Assembly (NCBI GenBank): GCA_023267975.1
Contig: JALNLA010000005.1
Coordinates: forward strand, 36,958-100,957
Reading direction: 5' to 3'
Length of the DNA: 64,000 nt
From: Candidatus Terraquivivens ruidianensis
GTDB lineage: Archaea; Thermoproteota; Nitrososphaeria_A; Caldarchaeales; Wolframiiraptoraceae
The notes under the pieces are model-generated. The model was not told the DNA's origin. It did no database searches and saw only the letters and a program-made list of their open reading frames with translations. The position numbers were made by a program, and so were the translations under genes. Of the stretch, positions 907 through 24,127 are shown piece after piece; positions within the stretch are counted from its first letter, which is position 1; each line of letters starts with the position of its first letter.

Positions 907-2043
907 ATGAGCGAAAAAGATAGGCCCCTGCTAATAGAAGCACAGGACTTTAACGGGCTACTCTTATCGCTTAAAAGGCTAGGTTATGCAACCTATGCAC
1001 CAACGGTGAGGGATGGAGCTATAGTTTATGACCTAGTCGATTCCGCAGATGACTTGCCAATCGGCATAGGTGACGTACAGGAGCCTGGCTCGTATCGTCT
1101 TAGGAAAAGGGGAGACGGGTCCTTCTTTGGATTCGTGGTTGGTCCACATTCGTGGAAGAAGTTTTTGCACCCGCCTACCGTTAAGTTGTTTACCATAAAC
1201 AGTAATGGGAAAATCGTTGCAAACCTAGAGAATAGCGACCAGAAGTTAGCCTTCATAGGTGTCAGGCCCTGCGAACTCCAGGCCATAAAGATACTCGACA
1301 AAGTCCTGCTAGGAGGAGAATACCTTGACATCGTATATGCTAGCAGGCGAAAAGATGTTTTCTTCGTGGTGGTCAATTGCATAGAGCCCGGTGGAAATTG
1401 TTTTTGCGCATCAGTTGGCACGGGGCCAGAAGCAAAGGACGGGTTTGACCTATGCCTAACGGAGCTGCTCAAACCAGACGGACATTATTTTCTTGTAAGA
1501 ATAGGTAGCGAAAAAGGTAGGGAGTTAATTAGTTCGGTGCATTACAGGCAGGCAACTGACGAGGAGGTCGAGCTTGCCTCCAGGCTTCTTACCCTATCAA
1601 GCGAACACATGGGTAAGAAGCTTGAGATAAAAGGGATGAAGGAGCTTCTTTACAGAAACCTTGACCACCCCCACTGGGATGAAGTTGCCAAACGTTGCCT
1701 TACATGCGGTAACTGCACGATGGTCTGCCCGACGTGCTTTTGCACGACCGTTTACGAAACGACCAACCTCTCCTTAAAGTATGCTGAGAAATGGAGGAGT
1801 TGGGATACGTGCTTCTCCCAAGAATTCTCTTACATACATGGGGGTCCAATACGATATTCTATAAGCGCACGCTACAGGCATTGGTTGATGCATAAGATGG
1901 CTACGTGGATGGACCAATTTGGTACGCTAGGCTGCGTCGGATGCGGCAGATGCATAACTTGGTGTCCCGTGGGAATAGATATTACTGAGGAAGTTAAACA
2001 GATCGATAAAAGAGACGGGGAGGTGAAGGTTAAAGTTGAGTGA
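907..2043 (+). CDS. hydB: Group 3b NiFe-hydrogenase (sulfhydrogenase) beta subunit, iron-sulfur protein
   Basis: Electron-transfer subunit of the cytoplasmic NADP(H)-linked hydrogenase, also similar to anaerobic sulfite reductase subunit A. An N-terminal domain has GVRPCELQAIK and a Cys-rich NCIEPGGNCFCAS segment. Two C-terminal 4Fe-4S motifs follow, CLTCGNCTMVCPTC and CVGCGRCITWCPVG. At 378 residues the length is usual. The ATG at 907 has GGAG at 893-896. The end overlaps the next gene by 8 bases, and the order beta-(cNMP)-gamma-delta-alpha matches Pyrococcus-like hydBGDA apart from the inserted second gene. Its likely role is to pass electrons between the FAD subunit and the NiFe heterodimer. 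The family is sure; whether it has S0-reductase activity cannot be read from sequence. Confidence 0.93.
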   Translation: MSEKDRPLLIEAQDFNGLLLSLKRLGYATYAPTVRDGAIVYDLVDSADDLPIGIGDVQEPGSYRLRKRGDGSFFGFVVGPHSWKKFLHPPTVKLFTINSNGKIVANLENSDQKLAFIGVRPCELQAIKILDKVLLGGEYLDIVYASRRKDVFFVVVNCIEPGGNCFCASVGTGPEAKDGFDLCLTELLKPDGHYFLVRIGSEKGRELISSVHYRQATDEEVELASRLLTLSSEHMGKKLEIKGMKELLYRNLDHPHWDEVAKRCLTCGNCTMVCPTCFCTTVYETTNLSLKYAEKWRSWDTCFSQEFSYIHGGPIRYSISARYRHWLMHKMATWMDQFGTLGCVGCGRCITWCPVGIDITEEVKQIDKRDGEVKVKVE

Positions 2044-2530
2044 AGAAAAGGTTGACATCCTAACTATGCTGCGGGATCATCCGTTCATGCGGGACCTTCC
2101 TGAGAAGTACTTGCAACAGATTGCGGAGTTTTCTTCGCTCGTCCGCTTCAAGAGCGGACAAAAGGTGTTTGAGGAAGGAGAAGTTCACATGAAGTTCTAC
2201 CTCATAGTTTACGGCCTTGTCGCCCTTTATTCCGAGGTTCCTTCGAAGGGTGAGTTAAGGTTCGAGACGGTACGGGGTGGCGAGGTTCTGGGTTGGTCTT
2301 CGCTTGTCAGACCTTTTACTAAGACCGCATCTGCCAAAGTTATTGAGCCAACGTTAGCAATTGCGATAGATAGCAACAAACTTCTCGAGATGATGGACAA
2401 AGACCGTGAGTTAGGCTACAGCATCATTAGCAGGCTGATACAGATCGTTTCAGGCAGGCTTAAGGCAGTACGCTTCCAACTCTTGGACATTTATGCTTCG
2501 TTAAAGCGGGGTAAGAGCGAAAGTGGTTAG
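2036..2530 (+). CDS. Cyclic-nucleotide-binding-fold protein inside the hydrogenase operon, no DNA-binding domain
   Basis: A 164-residue protein that is almost entirely one Crp/cNMP-binding jelly roll (about residues 15-140). Visible features are LPEKYLQQIAEFSSL, FKSGQKVFEEGE, FYLIVYGLVALYS, GGEVLGWSSLV and the ASAKVIEPTLAIAID strand. The phosphate-binding cassette GEVLGWSS keeps Gly-Glu but not the classic Arg-Ser-Ala, so ligand binding is uncertain. After the jelly roll only about 20 residues remain and no helix-turn-helix is seen. It is therefore unlikely to be a transcription factor and is better read as an accessory or regulatory hydrogenase subunit. The start is TTG at 2036; both ends overlap neighbours by 8 bases, implying tight co-expression. 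Similar genes occur in other group 3b operons. Confidence 0.85.
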   Translation: MSEEKVDILTMLRDHPFMRDLPEKYLQQIAEFSSLVRFKSGQKVFEEGEVHMKFYLIVYGLVALYSEVPSKGELRFETVRGGEVLGWSSLVRPFTKTASAKVIEPTLAIAIDSNKLLEMMDKDRELGYSIISRLIQIVSGRLKAVRFQLLDIYASLKRGKSESG

Positions 2531-3377
2531 CTCCGGACAAGCTCAGTTGGTAGTTAAAGAGGAAACGGCTCTCAGATGGATGAGCGTCTCTAAGGTCGTG
2601 AAAGAAACTGTCGACACCTATACCCTATATCTTAAGCCAAGGACAGGGGAGCGGTTCTCGTTCAAGCCAGGCCAGTTCAACATGCTCTATGTCTTCGGCG
2701 TCGGTGAGGTTCCTATATCGATCAGCGGAGACCCCAAGAATTTAAACCATATAGCGCATACGGTTAGGGCAGTAGGCGCGGTTACTAATTCTCTTACAAA
2801 GCTTAGAGAAGGAGCGCGCGTGGGTTTCAGAGGTCCGTTTGGCAACGGCTGGCCTATAGACGAGGCCGTAGGTAATGACGTCCTGATAGTTGCAGGCGGC
2901 ATAGGCTTGGCACCGCTTCGCCCCGTCATATACCACTTAATCAACAATAGACAGGACTACGGCAAAGTTTTCGTTTTGTACGGTGCTAGAACACCAAACG
3001 ACCTACTTTACAAGAAGGAGTTGAAATCTTGGAAGGGTAGGATGGATATGGACGTGCTTGTAACCGTAGACAAGGGCGATGAAACGTGGAAGGGAAACTT
3101 GGGCGTCGTTACCATGCTTTTTGACTACGTTAAGCTCAACCCCGACAACACATACGCGTTCGTATGTGGACCTGAGATTATGATGAGGTTTACCGTAATA
3201 AACCTCAAAAACAAAGGACTGCCGGATGAAAAAATATTCCTTTCGATGGAAAGGAATATGAAGTGTGGTATAGGTGTTTGTGGCCACTGCCAGTTCGGTC
3301 CGTACTTTGTATGCAAAGATGGGCCTGTCTTCAGGCTTAATCAGATTAAGATGTTTTTCGGGAAGCGTGAAGTTTGA
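2523..3377 (+). CDS. hydG: Group 3b NiFe-hydrogenase gamma subunit, FAD/NAD(P)-binding
   Basis: Ferredoxin-NADP reductase-like diaphorase subunit that exchanges electrons with NAD(P)(H). An N-terminal FAD barrel (about residues 15-105) has [20 protein letters not shown]. The nucleotide-binding domain has [14 protein letters not shown] and [11 protein letters not shown]-terminal 2Fe-2S-type cysteine set is [14 protein letters not shown] with a later VCKDG. The 284-residue length is normal. The start is GTG at 2523, within the end of the previous gene; the stop overlaps hydD by 4 bases. This subunit makes the complex a soluble NAD(P)-coupled hydrogenase rather than a membrane one. Confidence 0.93.
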
Positions 3378-4153
3378 TGAAGGATAGCATACCAAAGCTT
3401 GCGGTTTTTAAGTTCAGTTCCTGCGACGGTTGTCAGCTGAGCATCCTCGATCTTGAAGATGAGCTTTTAGAGATAGGTCGACGTGTCAACATAGCGTACT
3501 TCTTGGAGGCCAGCAGGGCAACCGTTAAAGGACCGTACGACGTGGGCCTTGTAGAGGGCAGCATTTCAACACCACATGAAAAGGAGTTGATAAAGGATGT
3601 CAGGCAAAAGTGTAAGACGCTTATAACCATAGGAGCCTGTGCTACCGCAGGAGGCATACAGGCCCTGAGGAACTGGAAAGACGTAAAGGAGTTCGTCAGC
3701 GTCGTATATGCCAAGCCCGAGTACATAGAAACGCTTGAGAAGGCGACGCCGATATCCGAGCACGTAAAGGTCGACTTTGAGCTTAGGGGCTGCCCTGTAA
3801 ACAAATACCAAATTTTAGAGGTACTTACCGCCTTCTTGGCGGGCAGAAAACCGAACATTCCTTCTCACAGCGTCTGCGTAGAGTGCAAGCGCAAAGGTAA
3901 TGTATGCATCATGGTATCCAACGGAGTACCATGTCTCGGGCCAGTCACGCAAGTTGGGTGCGGCGCCATATGCCCGTCTTACGGCAGGGGTTGTTATGGA
4001 TGCTTCGGACCCATGGAAAGCCCGAACGCAGAATCTCTCGGGGAGAGAATCCTCCAGCTCGGTATTAGCAAAAGGGATATCGTGCTCATGTTTAAGGGCT
4101 TTAACGGATGGTCAGAACCCTTCAGGAAGGCTGGTGATGCTTTTGAAGAGTAA
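3374..4153 (+). CDS. hydD: Group 3b NiFe-hydrogenase delta (small) subunit
   Basis: Small subunit of the NiFe core, carrying three iron-sulfur clusters that relay electrons from the active site. The proximal cluster motif is [12 protein letters not shown], with GACAT and RGCPVN further on. The medial and distal cysteines lie in [11 protein letters not shown] and [19 protein letters not shown]. At 259 residues it has the usual length and there is no Tat signal, which fits a cytoplasmic enzyme. Its ATG overlaps the hydG stop by 4 bases and its end overlaps hydA by 17 bases, so the core pair is probably made by coupled translation. Confidence 0.95.
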
Positions 4154-5438
4154 GACGAAAACTATAAGCGTCGACTATCTGGCAAGGGTAGAGGGCGAAG
4201 GCTCTCTTTTCATCAAGGTTAAGGGCGACCAAGTTATAGACACAAAGTTCAAGATATTTGAGCCGCCTAGGTTCTTTGAAGCGTTTCTCCGGGGCAGAAA
4301 GTACCACGAAGTCCCTGACATAACGGCCAGGATATGTGGCATCTGTCCGATTGCCTATCAGATGAGCGCCGTCCATGCCTTGGAGATGGTATTCGACGTA
4401 AACGTTGACGATAGCATCAGAGAGCTCAGGAGGTTGATCTACTGCGGCGAATGGATAGAGAGCCACGCCCTGCATGCTTTTCTGCTCCACGCTCCGGACT
4501 TCTTGGGTTATGACGATGCAATAAGGATGGCTAGAGACCATCCGGAAATAGTGAAGAAGGCGCTATTCGTTAAGAAGCTTGGAAACGAGCTCGTGAGGCT
4601 TTTGGGCGGTAGAGAAGTTCATCCGGTATCCGTATGCGTTGGTGGCTTCTACAAAGTGCCTACGAAGAGACAGTTGGATGCTATAAAGGACGAACTAAAG
4701 CAAGGCATGGAAGTTGCTCGAGAATTACTCGAATGGTCTGCTAAGTTAAAGTTCCCAAGGTTTGAGCAGGATTACGAGTTCATCTCCCTAAGACACCAAA
4801 ACGAGTACCCGATGAACGAAGGCCGCATAGTCTCCAACAAAGGCCTAGACATCGCCGTAAAAGAGTACGATGAATACTTCGTTGAAGAACACATGCCACA
4901 CTCTAACGCTCTGCACTCATACATAAAGGGAAGGGGCGCCTACTTTGTCGGTCCCTTGGCTAGGGTTAACCTGAACTTCGACAAGTTTTATGACCTAACG
5001 AAGGACACGCTCAAGCATGTCGGCTTCGAGATACCGTGTAAAAACCCGTTCATGAGCATAGTGGCTAGGTGTGCAGAGACGCTTTACTCCTTCGAGGAAG
5101 CCATTAGGATAATAGACGAGTACAAAGAACCTTCAAGGCCAAGGGCGGACTACGAGGTCAAGGCGGGAATCGGTTACGGCTGCACAGAAGCCCCGAGGGG
5201 AATGCTTTACCACAGATACGAGGTCGCCCCGGACGGTACGATACTATCGGCCAAGATAGTTCCGCCTACAGCGCAGAACCAAAAGAGGATAGAGGAGGAC
5301 TTAAGGAGCATGGCGCCAGAAGTCCTGAAGCTGCCGTATAAGCAGGCCGTCTGGAGGTTCGAGCAGGCCATCAGGAATTACGACCCGTGCATATCCTGCG
5401 CCACGCACTTCCTGAAGCTAGAGGTCGAGCGCTCTTAG
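4137..5438 (+). CDS. hydA: Group 3b NiFe-hydrogenase alpha (large, catalytic) subunit
   Basis: Carries the NiFe active site for reversible H2 oxidation. Both cysteine pairs that bind the metals are present: ARICGICP near residue 65 and DPCISCATH near the C-terminus. Nine residues follow the last His, which suits cleavage by a maturation endopeptidase. The frame is open further upstream, but ATG 4137 gives a normal 433-residue protein beginning [22 protein letters not shown], the family's usual N-terminus. No hyp maturation genes or specific protease are in this window. The operon ends here; a hairpin and a tRNA gene follow. Confidence 0.95.
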
Positions 5439-5451
5439 CCAAGCCGTACTT

Positions 5452-5474
5452 CTTCTAAAATTTTTATTTAGAAG
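5452..5474 (+). repeat. Perfect 8-bp inverted repeat after hydA, overlapping the tRNA promoter
   Basis: CTTCTAAA (5452-5459) and TTTAGAAG (5467-5474) are exact inverted copies separated by ATTTTTA. The loop and right arm also supply an AT-rich TATA-like stretch (5461-5468) about 26-33 bases before the tRNA-Gly at 5494. It could end the hyd transcript, act as an operator, or simply be a symmetrical TATA region. Confidence 0.5.
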
Positions 5475-5493
5475 CCGAGTTACATAAAACTGG

Positions 5494-5572
<79 letters not shown>

Positions 5573-5721
5573 GAAAACATAGGTCTTACTAAGCCTATAC
5601 AACTTTTGCTCCATTATTGTTGATTCATCGACTGTAAGTTTCTGTCTTATTTTCTCCGCTATTCAAGTATGTTTTTGTAATAATCCGAGTAAGTAAGAAC
5701 AGATAAGGTGCTGTTGAACTC

Positions 5722-6993
5722 TCATTTATAGAAGTTCATCCAGCCCTCCATCTTCTCCCAAGACCAATTGTAACCTGCTGGCACGGCGTATCCGTAGACT
5801 ATGCAGCCACGCCAGACCGAGTACTGCGGCTCCGATGCCATGTTTACCTCCACGTTCTCGATGCCCTTCTCTGTCATCATGCGCTTGACCTTTGTCGTAG
5901 AGTCTACACAGATGCCCTTCAGCTTCTCGGGAACCTTCCAAGAGAAGTTTCCGCCCGATAGAAGTATCTGGCTGTAAAGGAGTGGCTGGAGCTCGACGGG
6001 GCACTTCTCTACGGCCGTTATTATCGCCTCAGCAACGTCCATCGTTCCGTAAAAAACGACATCGCCGAGCTTCGTATCTTTCGGCCTTGGCATGCCCCTT
6101 TTGAAGTAACTCTGAAATATTTCGTGGTTTGGGTTAAAGACGTATTCGCCGACGAGAAACCTTGTCCAAGAGTTCTCCGCAAGTTCTATCTTGAGCCTCG
6201 TTCCAGGAACCGCATAAACGGCCCTGACCGCTTCCGGGTTGCTCTTAGCGAAAGAGATGGCCGGGTCCAAATCAGCAGGCAATAGACCCAAGCTCTCCTT
6301 AACCTTTCTCACCAGCGCCTCCTCGCCAGCTAGGTCGCCGTAGCCAGCATCCTTGAGAATTTCTGCCATGATGGCGTTGGCATCGCTGCCTCCTCGGTTC
6401 AAAGCCACGACCGCGCCCCTGATCGGCGCCCTAGAGATGGGCGCAAGCTGCGTGTTTCCGTGCCCACTCTCCACCACGACGCAGGACGTTTTCTTATGGG
6501 CTATGGCAACGCTCAAGGGTTGCGGAATTATCGTTGCCGAGTGCACGAGACCTACCTCTTTAGCCATGCTATCGAATATCTCGAACAGTCTCTCGTACAT
6601 ATATCTCGGAGCGACCGCCGAAAGGGCTGCTACGACGTAGAAGCCGTTGAAGCCCCAACCCTTTGGCCTGAACTCTTCTAAAGCATAGTGCGTCAGCTCC
6701 TTTACTACCTTCCACGCCCTTGCGTCGTCTTTCATAACGATGCCCTCCCTCATCGGATAGACGAGTCTGGTAGCAAGCTCCGCACCGCTCTCCAGAAAAA
6801 GTGTCACATCCTTGCCGACTACGACCTCATGGTCTGCTCCCATTATCTGAGAGAGAACGGACTTCTCGGGGAAGTAGCCCCTGTTCTCCACTGCGAGAGG
6901 CCTCTCGCCTTGGGTTATCGGCCCGTACTTGAATTCACTGGTTCCATAATCGGCACCAAATACATAACGCCTCTTATAATCTTCGTCATGCAT
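5722..6993 (-). CDS. Crenactin-type archaeal actin
   Basis: Filament-forming actin/Hsp70-fold ATPase of the crenactin family, thought to act in archaeal cell shape. The 423 residues hold the phosphate-1 loop FGADYGTSEFKYGP near the N-terminus, the phosphate-2 loop VVVESGHGNTQLAPI, and an adenosine-type segment around QILLSGGNFSW. The GPITQGERPLAVENRG stretch just after phosphate-1 also looks crenactin-like and is unlike MreB or ParM. The C-terminal MASEPQYSVWRGCIVYG is reminiscent of the actin region around PERKYSVWIGG. It lies 33 bases behind the arcadin-like gene on the same strand, as in the arcade clusters of Pyrobaculum-like archaea. Confidence 0.9.
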   Translation of the reverse strand: MHDEDYKRRYVFGADYGTSEFKYGPITQGERPLAVENRGYFPEKSVLSQIMGADHEVVVGKDVTLFLESGAELATRLVYPMREGIVMKDDARAWKVVKELTHYALEEFRPKGWGFNGFYVVAALSAVAPRYMYERLFEIFDSMAKEVGLVHSATIIPQPLSVAIAHKKTSCVVVESGHGNTQLAPISRAPIRGAVVALNRGGSDANAIMAEILKDAGYGDLAGEEALVRKVKESLGLLPADLDPAISFAKSNPEAVRAVYAVPGTRLKIELAENSWTRFLVGEYVFNPNHEIFQSYFKRGMPRPKDTKLGDVVFYGTMDVAEAIITAVEKCPVELQPLLYSQILLSGGNFSWKVPEKLKGICVDSTTKVKRMMTEKGIENVEVNMASEPQYSVWRGCIVYGYAVPAGYNWSWEKMEGWMNFYK

Positions 6994-22568: not shown

Positions 22569-23813
22569 ATGGCGACCGAAGTCGCAAGGTGGTCGGGGCT
22601 AATCAAGAGGATAAGGCTTGTATGTAGGAATTGCTCCGAGGAATACGAGTCCCGCCTCCTCTACGCATGTCCGAAGTGCTTAGGCGCTCTGGAGGTAAAG
22701 TACGAAGTATCTGGCATGTCGAAGTCGACCTTCGAGTCAAGGAAGAGGTCCATCTGGAGGTACTTTGAACTGCTGCCCATAGAGGACCCGAGTAACGTCG
22801 TTGACATAGGCTCCGGCAACACGCCCCTAGTAAAGGCAGACAGGCTCGGCGAGGAGCTCGGGATAAGAGAGCTGTACATAAAGAACGACACGCTGAACCC
22901 GACGTTCTCTTTCAAGGATAGGCCAGCGTCCGTAGCGGTATCCAAGGCAAAGGAGTTTAGGTTGGTCGCCGTCGGCTGCGCCTCGACCGGGAACCTCGCA
23001 TCGGCGACTGCTGCACACGCGACCAAAGCAGGGCTTCCTTGTTATGTCTTCATGCCGTCTGACGTTGAGCGGAATAAGATACTGCAGGTAACCCAGTACG
23101 GCGCGGAGGTCGTGCTTGTGAATGGTACCTACGACGACGTGAACAGGCTTGCGCATGTATCCTGCGACCTTTACGACGTAGGCATAGTCAACGTAAACCT
23201 CAGGCCTTATTACGTCGAAGGCTCAAAGACGATGATGCTCGAGATAGTTGAGCAGCTAGGTTGGAGGGCTCCAGAACACGTCATCGTTCCCATGGCGAGT
23301 GGTGCACTCCTTTGCGCCCTTCATAAAGGTTTGAAGGAGATTGAGGAGCTTGGTATGGTAAAGGGTTCTACTAGGATGTCCGGCGCTCAGCCAGAAGGTT
23401 GCTCGCCGATAGTCGATGCATTCAAGAAAGGCTTAGATTACGTTATTCCTGTCGAGAGGCCTACGACGCTCGTCAAGAGCCTTGCTATCGGTATGCCAGG
23501 AGACGGTGCCTTTGCGCTCAAGACCGTTAGGCAGAGCGGCGGCGTATGCGAGTCCGTATCCGACGGAGAGGCGTTATATGCCGCTAGTCTTTTAGCAAAG
23601 ACCGAGGGCATCTTTGCAGAGCCAGGTGGAGCGATTACCGTGGCGGTCTTGAAGAAGTTGTTGGAGGATGGCAAGGTTGATAGGTCCGAAGAGGTCGTAT
23701 GCTGCGTAACGGGCGCGGGCTTCAAGGCCACCGAGCACATCTCGCAGCAGGACGTCAGGACAAAGTTGATATCACCTAAGATAGAAATGCTCAACACGAT
23801 CTTCGCTCGGTGA
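22569..23813 (+). CDS. thrC: Threonine synthase-like PLP enzyme with an N-terminal zinc ribbon
   Basis: Fold-type II PLP enzyme of 414 residues. The N-terminal ribbon has CRNCSEEY and YACPKC. The PLP lysine is in SFKDRPASVAVS, the phosphate loop is ASTGNLASATA, and the active-site IGMPGDGAFAL and EPGGA regions resemble archaeal threonine synthases that make threonine from phosphohomoserine. It lies 5 bases before a MoaD/ThiS-like gene. In bacteria such carriers donate sulfur to PLP enzymes of this fold (CysM with CysO), so a side or alternative role in sulfur amino acid synthesis is possible. The threonine synthase call rests on overall similarity. Confidence 0.88.
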   Translation: MATEVARWSGLIKRIRLVCRNCSEEYESRLLYACPKCLGALEVKYEVSGMSKSTFESRKRSIWRYFELLPIEDPSNVVDIGSGNTPLVKADRLGEELGIRELYIKNDTLNPTFSFKDRPASVAVSKAKEFRLVAVGCASTGNLASATAAHATKAGLPCYVFMPSDVERNKILQVTQYGAEVVLVNGTYDDVNRLAHVSCDLYDVGIVNVNLRPYYVEGSKTMMLEIVEQLGWRAPEHVIVPMASGALLCALHKGLKEIEELGMVKGSTRMSGAQPEGCSPIVDAFKKGLDYVIPVERPTTLVKSLAIGMPGDGAFALKTVRQSGGVCESVSDGEALYAASLLAKTEGIFAEPGGAITVAVLKKLLEDGKVDRSEEVVCCVTGAGFKATEHISQQDVRTKLISPKIEMLNTIFAR

Positions 23814-23818
23814 GATGT

Positions 23819-24127
23819 ATGGCAAGGGTTAGGCTCATCATGACCAGCACGCTGGCGATGTACCTCAATAGCGAGCGGGAACTCCATATGGAGGCCTCAA
23901 GCGTGCGGAAGCTGCTCGATCAGCTCTCCGAGAGGTTCGGCGACGCATTCAAGCATAGGGTTTTGGACGAGAACGGAAACCCAAAGAGCTTCGTGGTCAT
24001 ATATATCAACGGAAAGAACATACAATTTGCAGAAGGGCTGGATACGAAGCTCAACGACGGCGATGAGGTACTAATACTTCCGGCGATAGGCGGAGGTACG
24101 TCAAAGATTGCTTTGATTATTGTCTAG
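23819..24127 (+). CDS. MoaD/ThiS-like ubiquitin-fold protein with residues beyond the terminal Gly-Gly
   Basis: A 102-residue beta-grasp protein: MARVRLIMTSTLAMYL at the start, an ASSVRKLLDQLSERFG helix, FVVIYINGKNIQF and the late LNDGDEVLILPAIGGG. Active sulfur carriers end exactly at Gly-Gly, but here TSKIALIIV follows GGG. Either the tail is removed by a protease before thiocarboxylation or AMPylation, or the protein is not a carrier. ATG 23819 follows GGTGAG; a GTG at 23810 overlapping the thrC stop is the alternative. It is co-transcribed with thrC. MoaE, MoaB and MoaC are encoded elsewhere in the window, so a role as molybdopterin synthase small subunit remains possible. Confidence 0.8.
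   Translation: MARVRLIMTSTLAMYLNSERELHMEASSVRKLLDQLSERFGDAFKHRVLDENGNPKSFVVIYINGKNIQFAEGLDTKLNDGDEVLILPAIGGGTSKIALIIV

Follow-up and report, generated by a model that had tools for sequence, protein, structure and literature searches.

Hasebe et al. reportedly found in 2024 that the substrates of MetM are O-phosphohomoserine and thiocarboxylated MetO, and this pathway is said to occur in archaea. In Wolinella HcyS/HcyD and in QbsE/QbsD, a carrier with one or more extra C-terminal residues is trimmed by a JAMM protease. According to the available part of a study on MetM (PMC12172450), the enzyme is a homocysteine synthase in Streptomyces, and cyanobacteria have homologues with a metO-like neighbour. 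The same part reports threonine synthase and deaminase activity for the Microcystis homologue and doubts its full MetM role in the cell. These activities argue against a simple transfer of function from Streptomyces MetM. A SAM riboswitch lies upstream of S. albulus metM and is absent in Microcystis, so it is not essential to MetM (PMC12172450, same part). In Caldiarchaeum, Csub_C0703 (CsJAMM) cleaved SAMP precursors and not pro-ubiquitin, and CsRpn11 cut pro-ubiquitin and not SAMP precursors (accessible text of PMC6043591). Terraquivivens is included in the Caldarchaeales (accessible text of PMC9246946). In the text available for Makarova and Koonin 2010 (PMC2948915), archaeal E1 genes were linked to cysteine synthase, a Ubl-E1 fusion was described, Jab was rarely found with Ubl genes, and the term "threonine synthase" is absent. 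A MoaD-MoeB fusion was reported in Thaumarchaeota (PMC11237513, in excerpt). In these partial sources, MetM/MetO, CysO/CysM/Mec (PMC3227635), and JAMM cleavage of carrier precursors in Caldarchaeales are already known; a report joining MetM, a tailed carrier, CysM, and JAMM in archaea was not found in the accessible portions of open-licence PMC papers.

In this study, we analysed a window of 64,000 nucleotides from Candidatus Terraquivivens ruidianensis, a hot-spring archaeon (source genome of 1.30 Mb, 97% complete), in which a gene for a PLP enzyme is followed by a carrier gene. The first open reading frame (22569-23813, + strand) encodes 414 amino acids and matched PF00291 (250.6 bits) and TIGR00260 (279.6 bits) in a Pfam/NCBIfam profile search. 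Lys116 of this protein (codon 22914-22916, + strand) lies in the motif NPTFSFKDRP, and we take it to be the PLP-binding lysine. The second open reading frame (23819-24127, + strand) encodes a ubiquitin-fold sulfur carrier precursor of 102 residues, which is MetO/CysO-like. It matched PF02597 (55.8 bits) and TIGR01687 (56.7 bits), in each case as far as residue 93, and its nearest PDB entries were 2g1e, 4n6e, and 3dwg (CysO). The initial annotation had placed a MoaD/ThiS-like gene 5 bases downstream of a thrC-like gene, and this gap can be read directly: the TGA of the enzyme is followed by GATGT and then by the carrier ATG at 23819, on the same strand. An in-frame GTG is present at 23810, upstream of this ATG, and the carriers of relatives begin at ATG. 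Among named organisms, Candidatus Terraquivivens tikiterensis (88%) and T. tengchongensis (74%) have the most similar carriers. A convergent gene with a PAS domain (PF13596, 24132-24560) ends 4 bases past the carrier gene.

The PLP enzyme had been annotated as a threonine synthase. In a 37-row tree that contains long rows, Nonomuraea included, 26 MetM-like rows (the window protein and 25 others) were separated from 11 canonical ThrC rows with support of 100/100. Among the canonical rows are a Lysinibacillus ThrC linked to thrB and, from Nonomuraea, its second ThrC. The MetM-like clade holds a gene of Nonomuraea gerenzanensis with a SAM riboswitch upstream (RF00162, 68.7 bits) and a carrier ending VAGG downstream; this gene, chosen for these two features, served as the MetM reference, S. 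albulus MetM not being among the rows. The riboswitch was detected only at this Nonomuraea locus (L120) and not in the approximately 250-300 bases upstream of each of L001, L003, and L004. The motifs N(V/I)NxRP(Y/F)YxEGSK, xSG(A/S), and SLAIGxP(G/A)DG were present in 26/26 rows of the clade. The source genome encodes three ThrC-like proteins, namely ThrC1 (on C2), the window protein (ThrC2), and ThrC3. ThrC1 matched 2zsj with 344 bits, and the window protein with 225 bits. The expected PLP lysine is kept in all ThrC2 and ThrC1 rows and is Leu in ThrC3. ThrC3 (L067 10516-12117, corresponding to 132516-134117 of C1) reads SFLDR, with Leu for Lys, in the five genus copies aligned, and one copy that was scanned has a PadR-like C-terminal domain. 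ThrC3 probably acts in regulation and not in catalysis. In G004, the MetM gene is split across two contigs.

An ordinary or bifunctional threonine synthase/deaminase would be consistent with the annotation and with the activities of the cyanobacterial MetM homologue (PMC12172450, in the part available). The carrier would then serve only a tungsten cofactor or tRNA thiolation, as carriers of the same fold do in cofactor and tRNA pathways, and the adjacency of the two genes would be incidental. However, a canonical ThrC lies elsewhere in the genome, and the canonical stretches NPxRLEGQKT and PVGNxGNI are replaced in the window protein and throughout the clade (26/26 rows). The linkage to a carrier also recurs. 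Of the 28 genomes with the enzyme (own genome included, 41 searched), 20 have the enzyme and carrier genes adjacent on the same strand (G040 by coordinates only). The thrC-moaD neighbourhood that the initial annotation proposed to look for in archaeal genomes is indeed a repeated arrangement, and the linkage was also found in Nonomuraea, Nitrososphaeraceae, and Dadabacteria. In addition, the two other carriers of the genome adjoin aldehyde:ferredoxin-oxidoreductase-like and MoeA-like open reading frames (names by ORF reading). We consider a threonine synthase/deaminase with an incidental neighbour improbable. On the basis of its sequence, "threonine synthase" is a misnomer, and the window enzyme is a MetM-type relative set apart from canonical ThrC. 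Its likely product would be homocysteine, formed from O-phosphohomoserine, rather than cysteine, and it is a probable carrier-dependent homocysteine synthase.

The carrier has the ThiS/MoaD fold with Gly-Gly, and Gly92-Gly93 (codons 24092-24097, + strand), the expected site of cleavage and thiocarboxylation, is invariant in alignment A1. In the primary product, this Gly-Gly is followed by further residues. Related proteins of solved structure (2g1e, 4n6e, and 3dwg) terminate at the residue aligned to Gly93, which leaves TSKIALIIV (residues 94-102; codons 24098-24124, + strand) as a nine-residue tail and probable propeptide. The profile matches end at the same residue, and the extension claimed at the outset is thereby confirmed. 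In the AlphaFold model, residues 91-102 had pLDDT below 50, and the preceding blocks averaged 86-95; in this model, residues 91-102 are predicted to be outside the confidently folded body. The five genus genomes with the gene have the tails TSKIALIIV, ILKSQ, TILHTL, TANINTGLQAA, and NPSIF (9, 5, 6, 11, and 5 residues). A carrier orthologue was not found in our search of the sixth, G002. Between genus pairs, 67-82 of 92 residues of the carrier body were identical, and the tail had no more than 2 matches in any pair. We dropped selection on the tail as an explanation since tail identity is near chance. A sequencing error was ruled out by the occurrence of tails in five separate assemblies; the genus homologues are all tailed, by 5-11 residues, and do not end at Gly-Gly as the initial annotation had considered. 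Its suggestion that the tail protects the protein as a propeptide gained no support, as the tail sequence is unconserved. In the simplest reading, a protease cuts after Gly-Gly, and the stop codon is therefore free to drift.

Carriers elsewhere in the order and beyond it also varied at this end. Other Caldarchaeales carriers have extensions of none to nine residues. In G024, G027, and G039 of family f4, the carrier of a CysM-JAMM-carrier cluster is fused in frame to about 90 extra residues (L021, L023, and L024), and the one such domain scanned (L021) had a MraZ-like match. Carrier-E1 fusions were found in G007 and Nitrososphaeraceae, and two actinobacterial CysO-like rows end in GGSD. Among the 19 MetM-linked carriers whose ends were read, 12 are extended or fused. 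A Mec-like JAMM (above 57 bits) was present in 11/12 genomes with an extended or fused carrier and in 6/7 without extension; a strict link between tail and protease was dropped since this comparison does not discriminate. Of the two other MoaD-like carriers of the source genome (L070 3629-3919 and 5992-6282), one ends in VGGKH and the other exactly at GG.

Absence of a JAMM/Mec-like protease from the genome had been named as evidence that would count against trimming. Such a gene was found (L067 2270-2731), beside a CysM-like gene (968-1957) and with TusA on the other strand, all within 1.8 kb. The JAMM motif of Glu, His-x-His, and Ser-x-x-Asp is kept in this protein and in 15/15 aligned rows. 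The CysM, which would use O-phosphoserine and thiocarboxylated carrier, has a CysM-like short loop with Lys in place of the Arg of actinobacterial CysM. An E1 of the genome (on C4) is orthologous to the E1 that, in relatives, adjoins the carrier or is fused with it. In G001, cysM (L071 13956-14932) matched in three pieces, as if frameshifted, and the neighbouring JAMM gene in one piece. In L033, labelled Bathyarchaeota SKYB89, MetM (733-1986), a carrier-linker-CysM fusion (1991-3610), E1 (3549-4673), a class V aminotransferase that is SufS-like by reading (4648-5934), and JAMM (approximately 6110-6508) stand in a row. As judged from these genes, the row would unite all the roles needed by the mechanism proposed below, homoserine kinase excepted.

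The CysM and JAMM genes were neighbours in 6/6 genus genomes and in 7/8 genomes of family f4, and in four of the latter (G024, G027, G031, and G039) the carrier comes next after them. MetM was not beside the carrier in any of the eight f4 genomes, which counts against the MetM/MetO reading. These clusters and the constant adjacency in the genus would fit a carrier that works mostly as CysO, together with CysM and Mec, and stands beside metM by historical accident; so would G005, which retains the carrier, CysM, and JAMM without a MetM match. Yet in distant bacteria, as in families f1, f2, and f3, it is MetM rather than CysM that adjoins the carrier, and many relatives have the MetM-carrier pair without cysM beside JAMM. 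We judge such a main role as CysO to be less probable again.

The carrier could also be a SAMP-like protein modifier, made ready for conjugation when JAMM trims its precursor. Its Caldiarchaeum homologues are termed SAMP precursors and were cleaved by CsJAMM (accessible text of PMC6043591), and the carrier matched the NCBIfam SAMP1 profile below the cut-off. However, the partner genes encode PLP enzymes of sulfur amino acid metabolism, reports of conjugates of these carriers were not found in the literature, as far as its accessible portions go, and the genome has a separate ubiquitin/E1/E2/RING/Rpn11-like set. This set (L066 1447-5332, on C1) has a ubiquitin-like protein with 17-18 residues past Gly-Gly, near E1, E2, RING, and an Rpn11-like JAMM, and it resembles the Caldiarchaeum ubiquitin system. 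Conjugation as the function of the carrier is the least probable of the readings weighed here, and these points may be compatible with a second, modifier role.

We surveyed 41 genomes of Caldarchaeales for MetM and for enzymes of the cystathionine-gamma-synthase (CGS) family, defined as full-length PF01053. MetM was found in 28/41 and a CGS-family enzyme in 13/41 (MetM only 24, CGS only 9, both 4, neither 4). In the 29 genomes at least 90% complete, the counts were 19, 7, 3, and 0 (Fisher p 7.7e-5, kinship ignored); the genomes are not phylogenetically independent, and in four genera (g1, g2, g5, and g7) the members differ from one another in MetM/CGS content. A complementary distribution is expected if the two enzymes replace each other. 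Strict mutual exclusion was dropped because four genomes have both. Within the genus, G000 (the source genome), G001, G003, and G004 have MetM without CGS, and G002 and G005 have CGS without MetM. The four genomes with neither are all less than 90% complete, and two of them (G008 and G011) also had no homoserine kinase match. A class-level search covered 29 genomes, all within the same set, and adds nothing beyond the order survey.

HcyBio was absent in 41/41 genomes. MetE-family matches were found in 38/41, and homoserine-kinase matches in 39/41 at E 1e-10, 15 of them above the curated cut-off. SepCysS was rejected as a cysteine source, with 0/41 genomes above its cut-off. MetY was also considered as a name for the PF01053 partner; a CGS-family enzyme fits better. 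The CGS-family gene adjoins homoserine kinase in f3 and SufS/IscU-like open reading frames (read by eye) in G009, G012, and G014. Given these different neighbours, the function of the CGS-family enzyme may differ between genera. A 453-residue open reading frame without a Pfam/NCBIfam match (L164 3751-5112) directly follows the CGS-family gene of G005, and similar-looking frames trail this gene in G006, G010, and G015.

Clade, linkage, and MetM/CGS pattern make a carrier-dependent sulfur amino acid pathway, as the initial annotation had suggested, the best-supported reading; the CysM/Mec arm is present but lies elsewhere in the genome. We propose, with a probability of about 0.75 and from sequence comparison, that the window pair is an archaeal MetM/MetO whose carrier precursor has its tail trimmed by JAMM. 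The carrier would be translated as a precursor, and the Mec-like JAMM encoded beside cysM would remove the tail after Gly93, for which there is in vitro precedent in Caldiarchaeum relatives. E1 would then adenylate Gly93, and sulfur from TusA and/or cysteine desulfurase would yield the thiocarboxylate. The PLP enzyme would convert O-phosphohomoserine and the carrier sulfur to homocysteine, as described for Streptomyces in the literature, and MetE would form methionine from homocysteine. The same carrier probably also supplies CysM for cysteine, and JAMM may have two tasks, maturation of the carrier and release of the product. We infer trimming in vivo, thiocarboxylation, the homocysteine product, and the sharing with CysM.

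A broader scheme, to which we give slightly less than an even chance, is that one carrier with a freely drifting tail serves two PLP enzymes of fold type II across Caldarchaeales, MetM in making homocysteine and CysM in making cysteine, with a single JAMM responsible both for carrier maturation and for setting the amino acid free, and that the SAMP/JAMM pair is a sulfur amino acid pathway. If so, the tail could have any length from 0 to about 90 residues, since the protease would trim every one. In archaea with methionine synthase and without a CGS-family or HcyBio route, the step that makes homocysteine is missing, and the window pair is a candidate for it. Its identification corrects the label "threonine synthase", which is probably misapplied in many genomes, and carriers hitherto regarded as SAMP modifiers would gain a role in metabolism. 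The pair also has a bearing on the origins of JAMM deubiquitinases, as trimming of a metabolic carrier and of pro-ubiquitin would coexist in one genome.

HcyS/HcyD and QbsE/QbsD differ from the window pair in their short extensions and other partners. As in Streptomyces MetM/MetO, a threonine-synthase-like PLP enzyme gene is followed by a carrier gene, and the window enzyme shares clade and motifs with the riboswitch-linked Nonomuraea pair, the arrangement reported for Streptomyces. In contrast to Streptomyces, the window pair is archaeal, its carrier is tailed, a SAM riboswitch was not found upstream, and a companion CysM-JAMM pair is present. The CysO-CysM-Mec system of Mycobacterium (accessible text of PMC3227635) is similar in the carrier fold, the CysO-like sequence, and the presence of CysM-like and JAMM genes in the genome. 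Here, however, the carrier gene sits with MetM and cysM-JAMM lies elsewhere, and Mycobacterium CysO ends at Gly-Gly (aligned end of 3dwg) whereas the window carrier extends nine residues. In Caldiarchaeum pro-ubiquitin/Rpn11, a JAMM enzyme likewise removes a nine-residue tail past Gly-Gly, but from ubiquitin and not from a sulfur carrier, and CsRpn11 spares SAMP precursors (PMC5654768 and PMC6043591, accessible text). CsSAMP/CsJAMM of Caldiarchaeum subterraneum belongs to the same order, and a dedicated JAMM cuts its carrier precursors; it was studied as a modifier system, with no sulfur amino acid role given in the accessible text (PMC6043591). G024 probably represents this species, as its gene numbering is consistent with Csub_C0702, Csub_C0703, Csub_C1473, and Csub_C1603. 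The presumed Csub_C0702 (in G024) has a 183-residue open frame and is extended by an entire domain, compared with nine residues in the window carrier. By analogy, and within the accessible text of that source, the cleavage of SAMP precursors by CsJAMM would be the best experimental support for removal of the tail in the window carrier.
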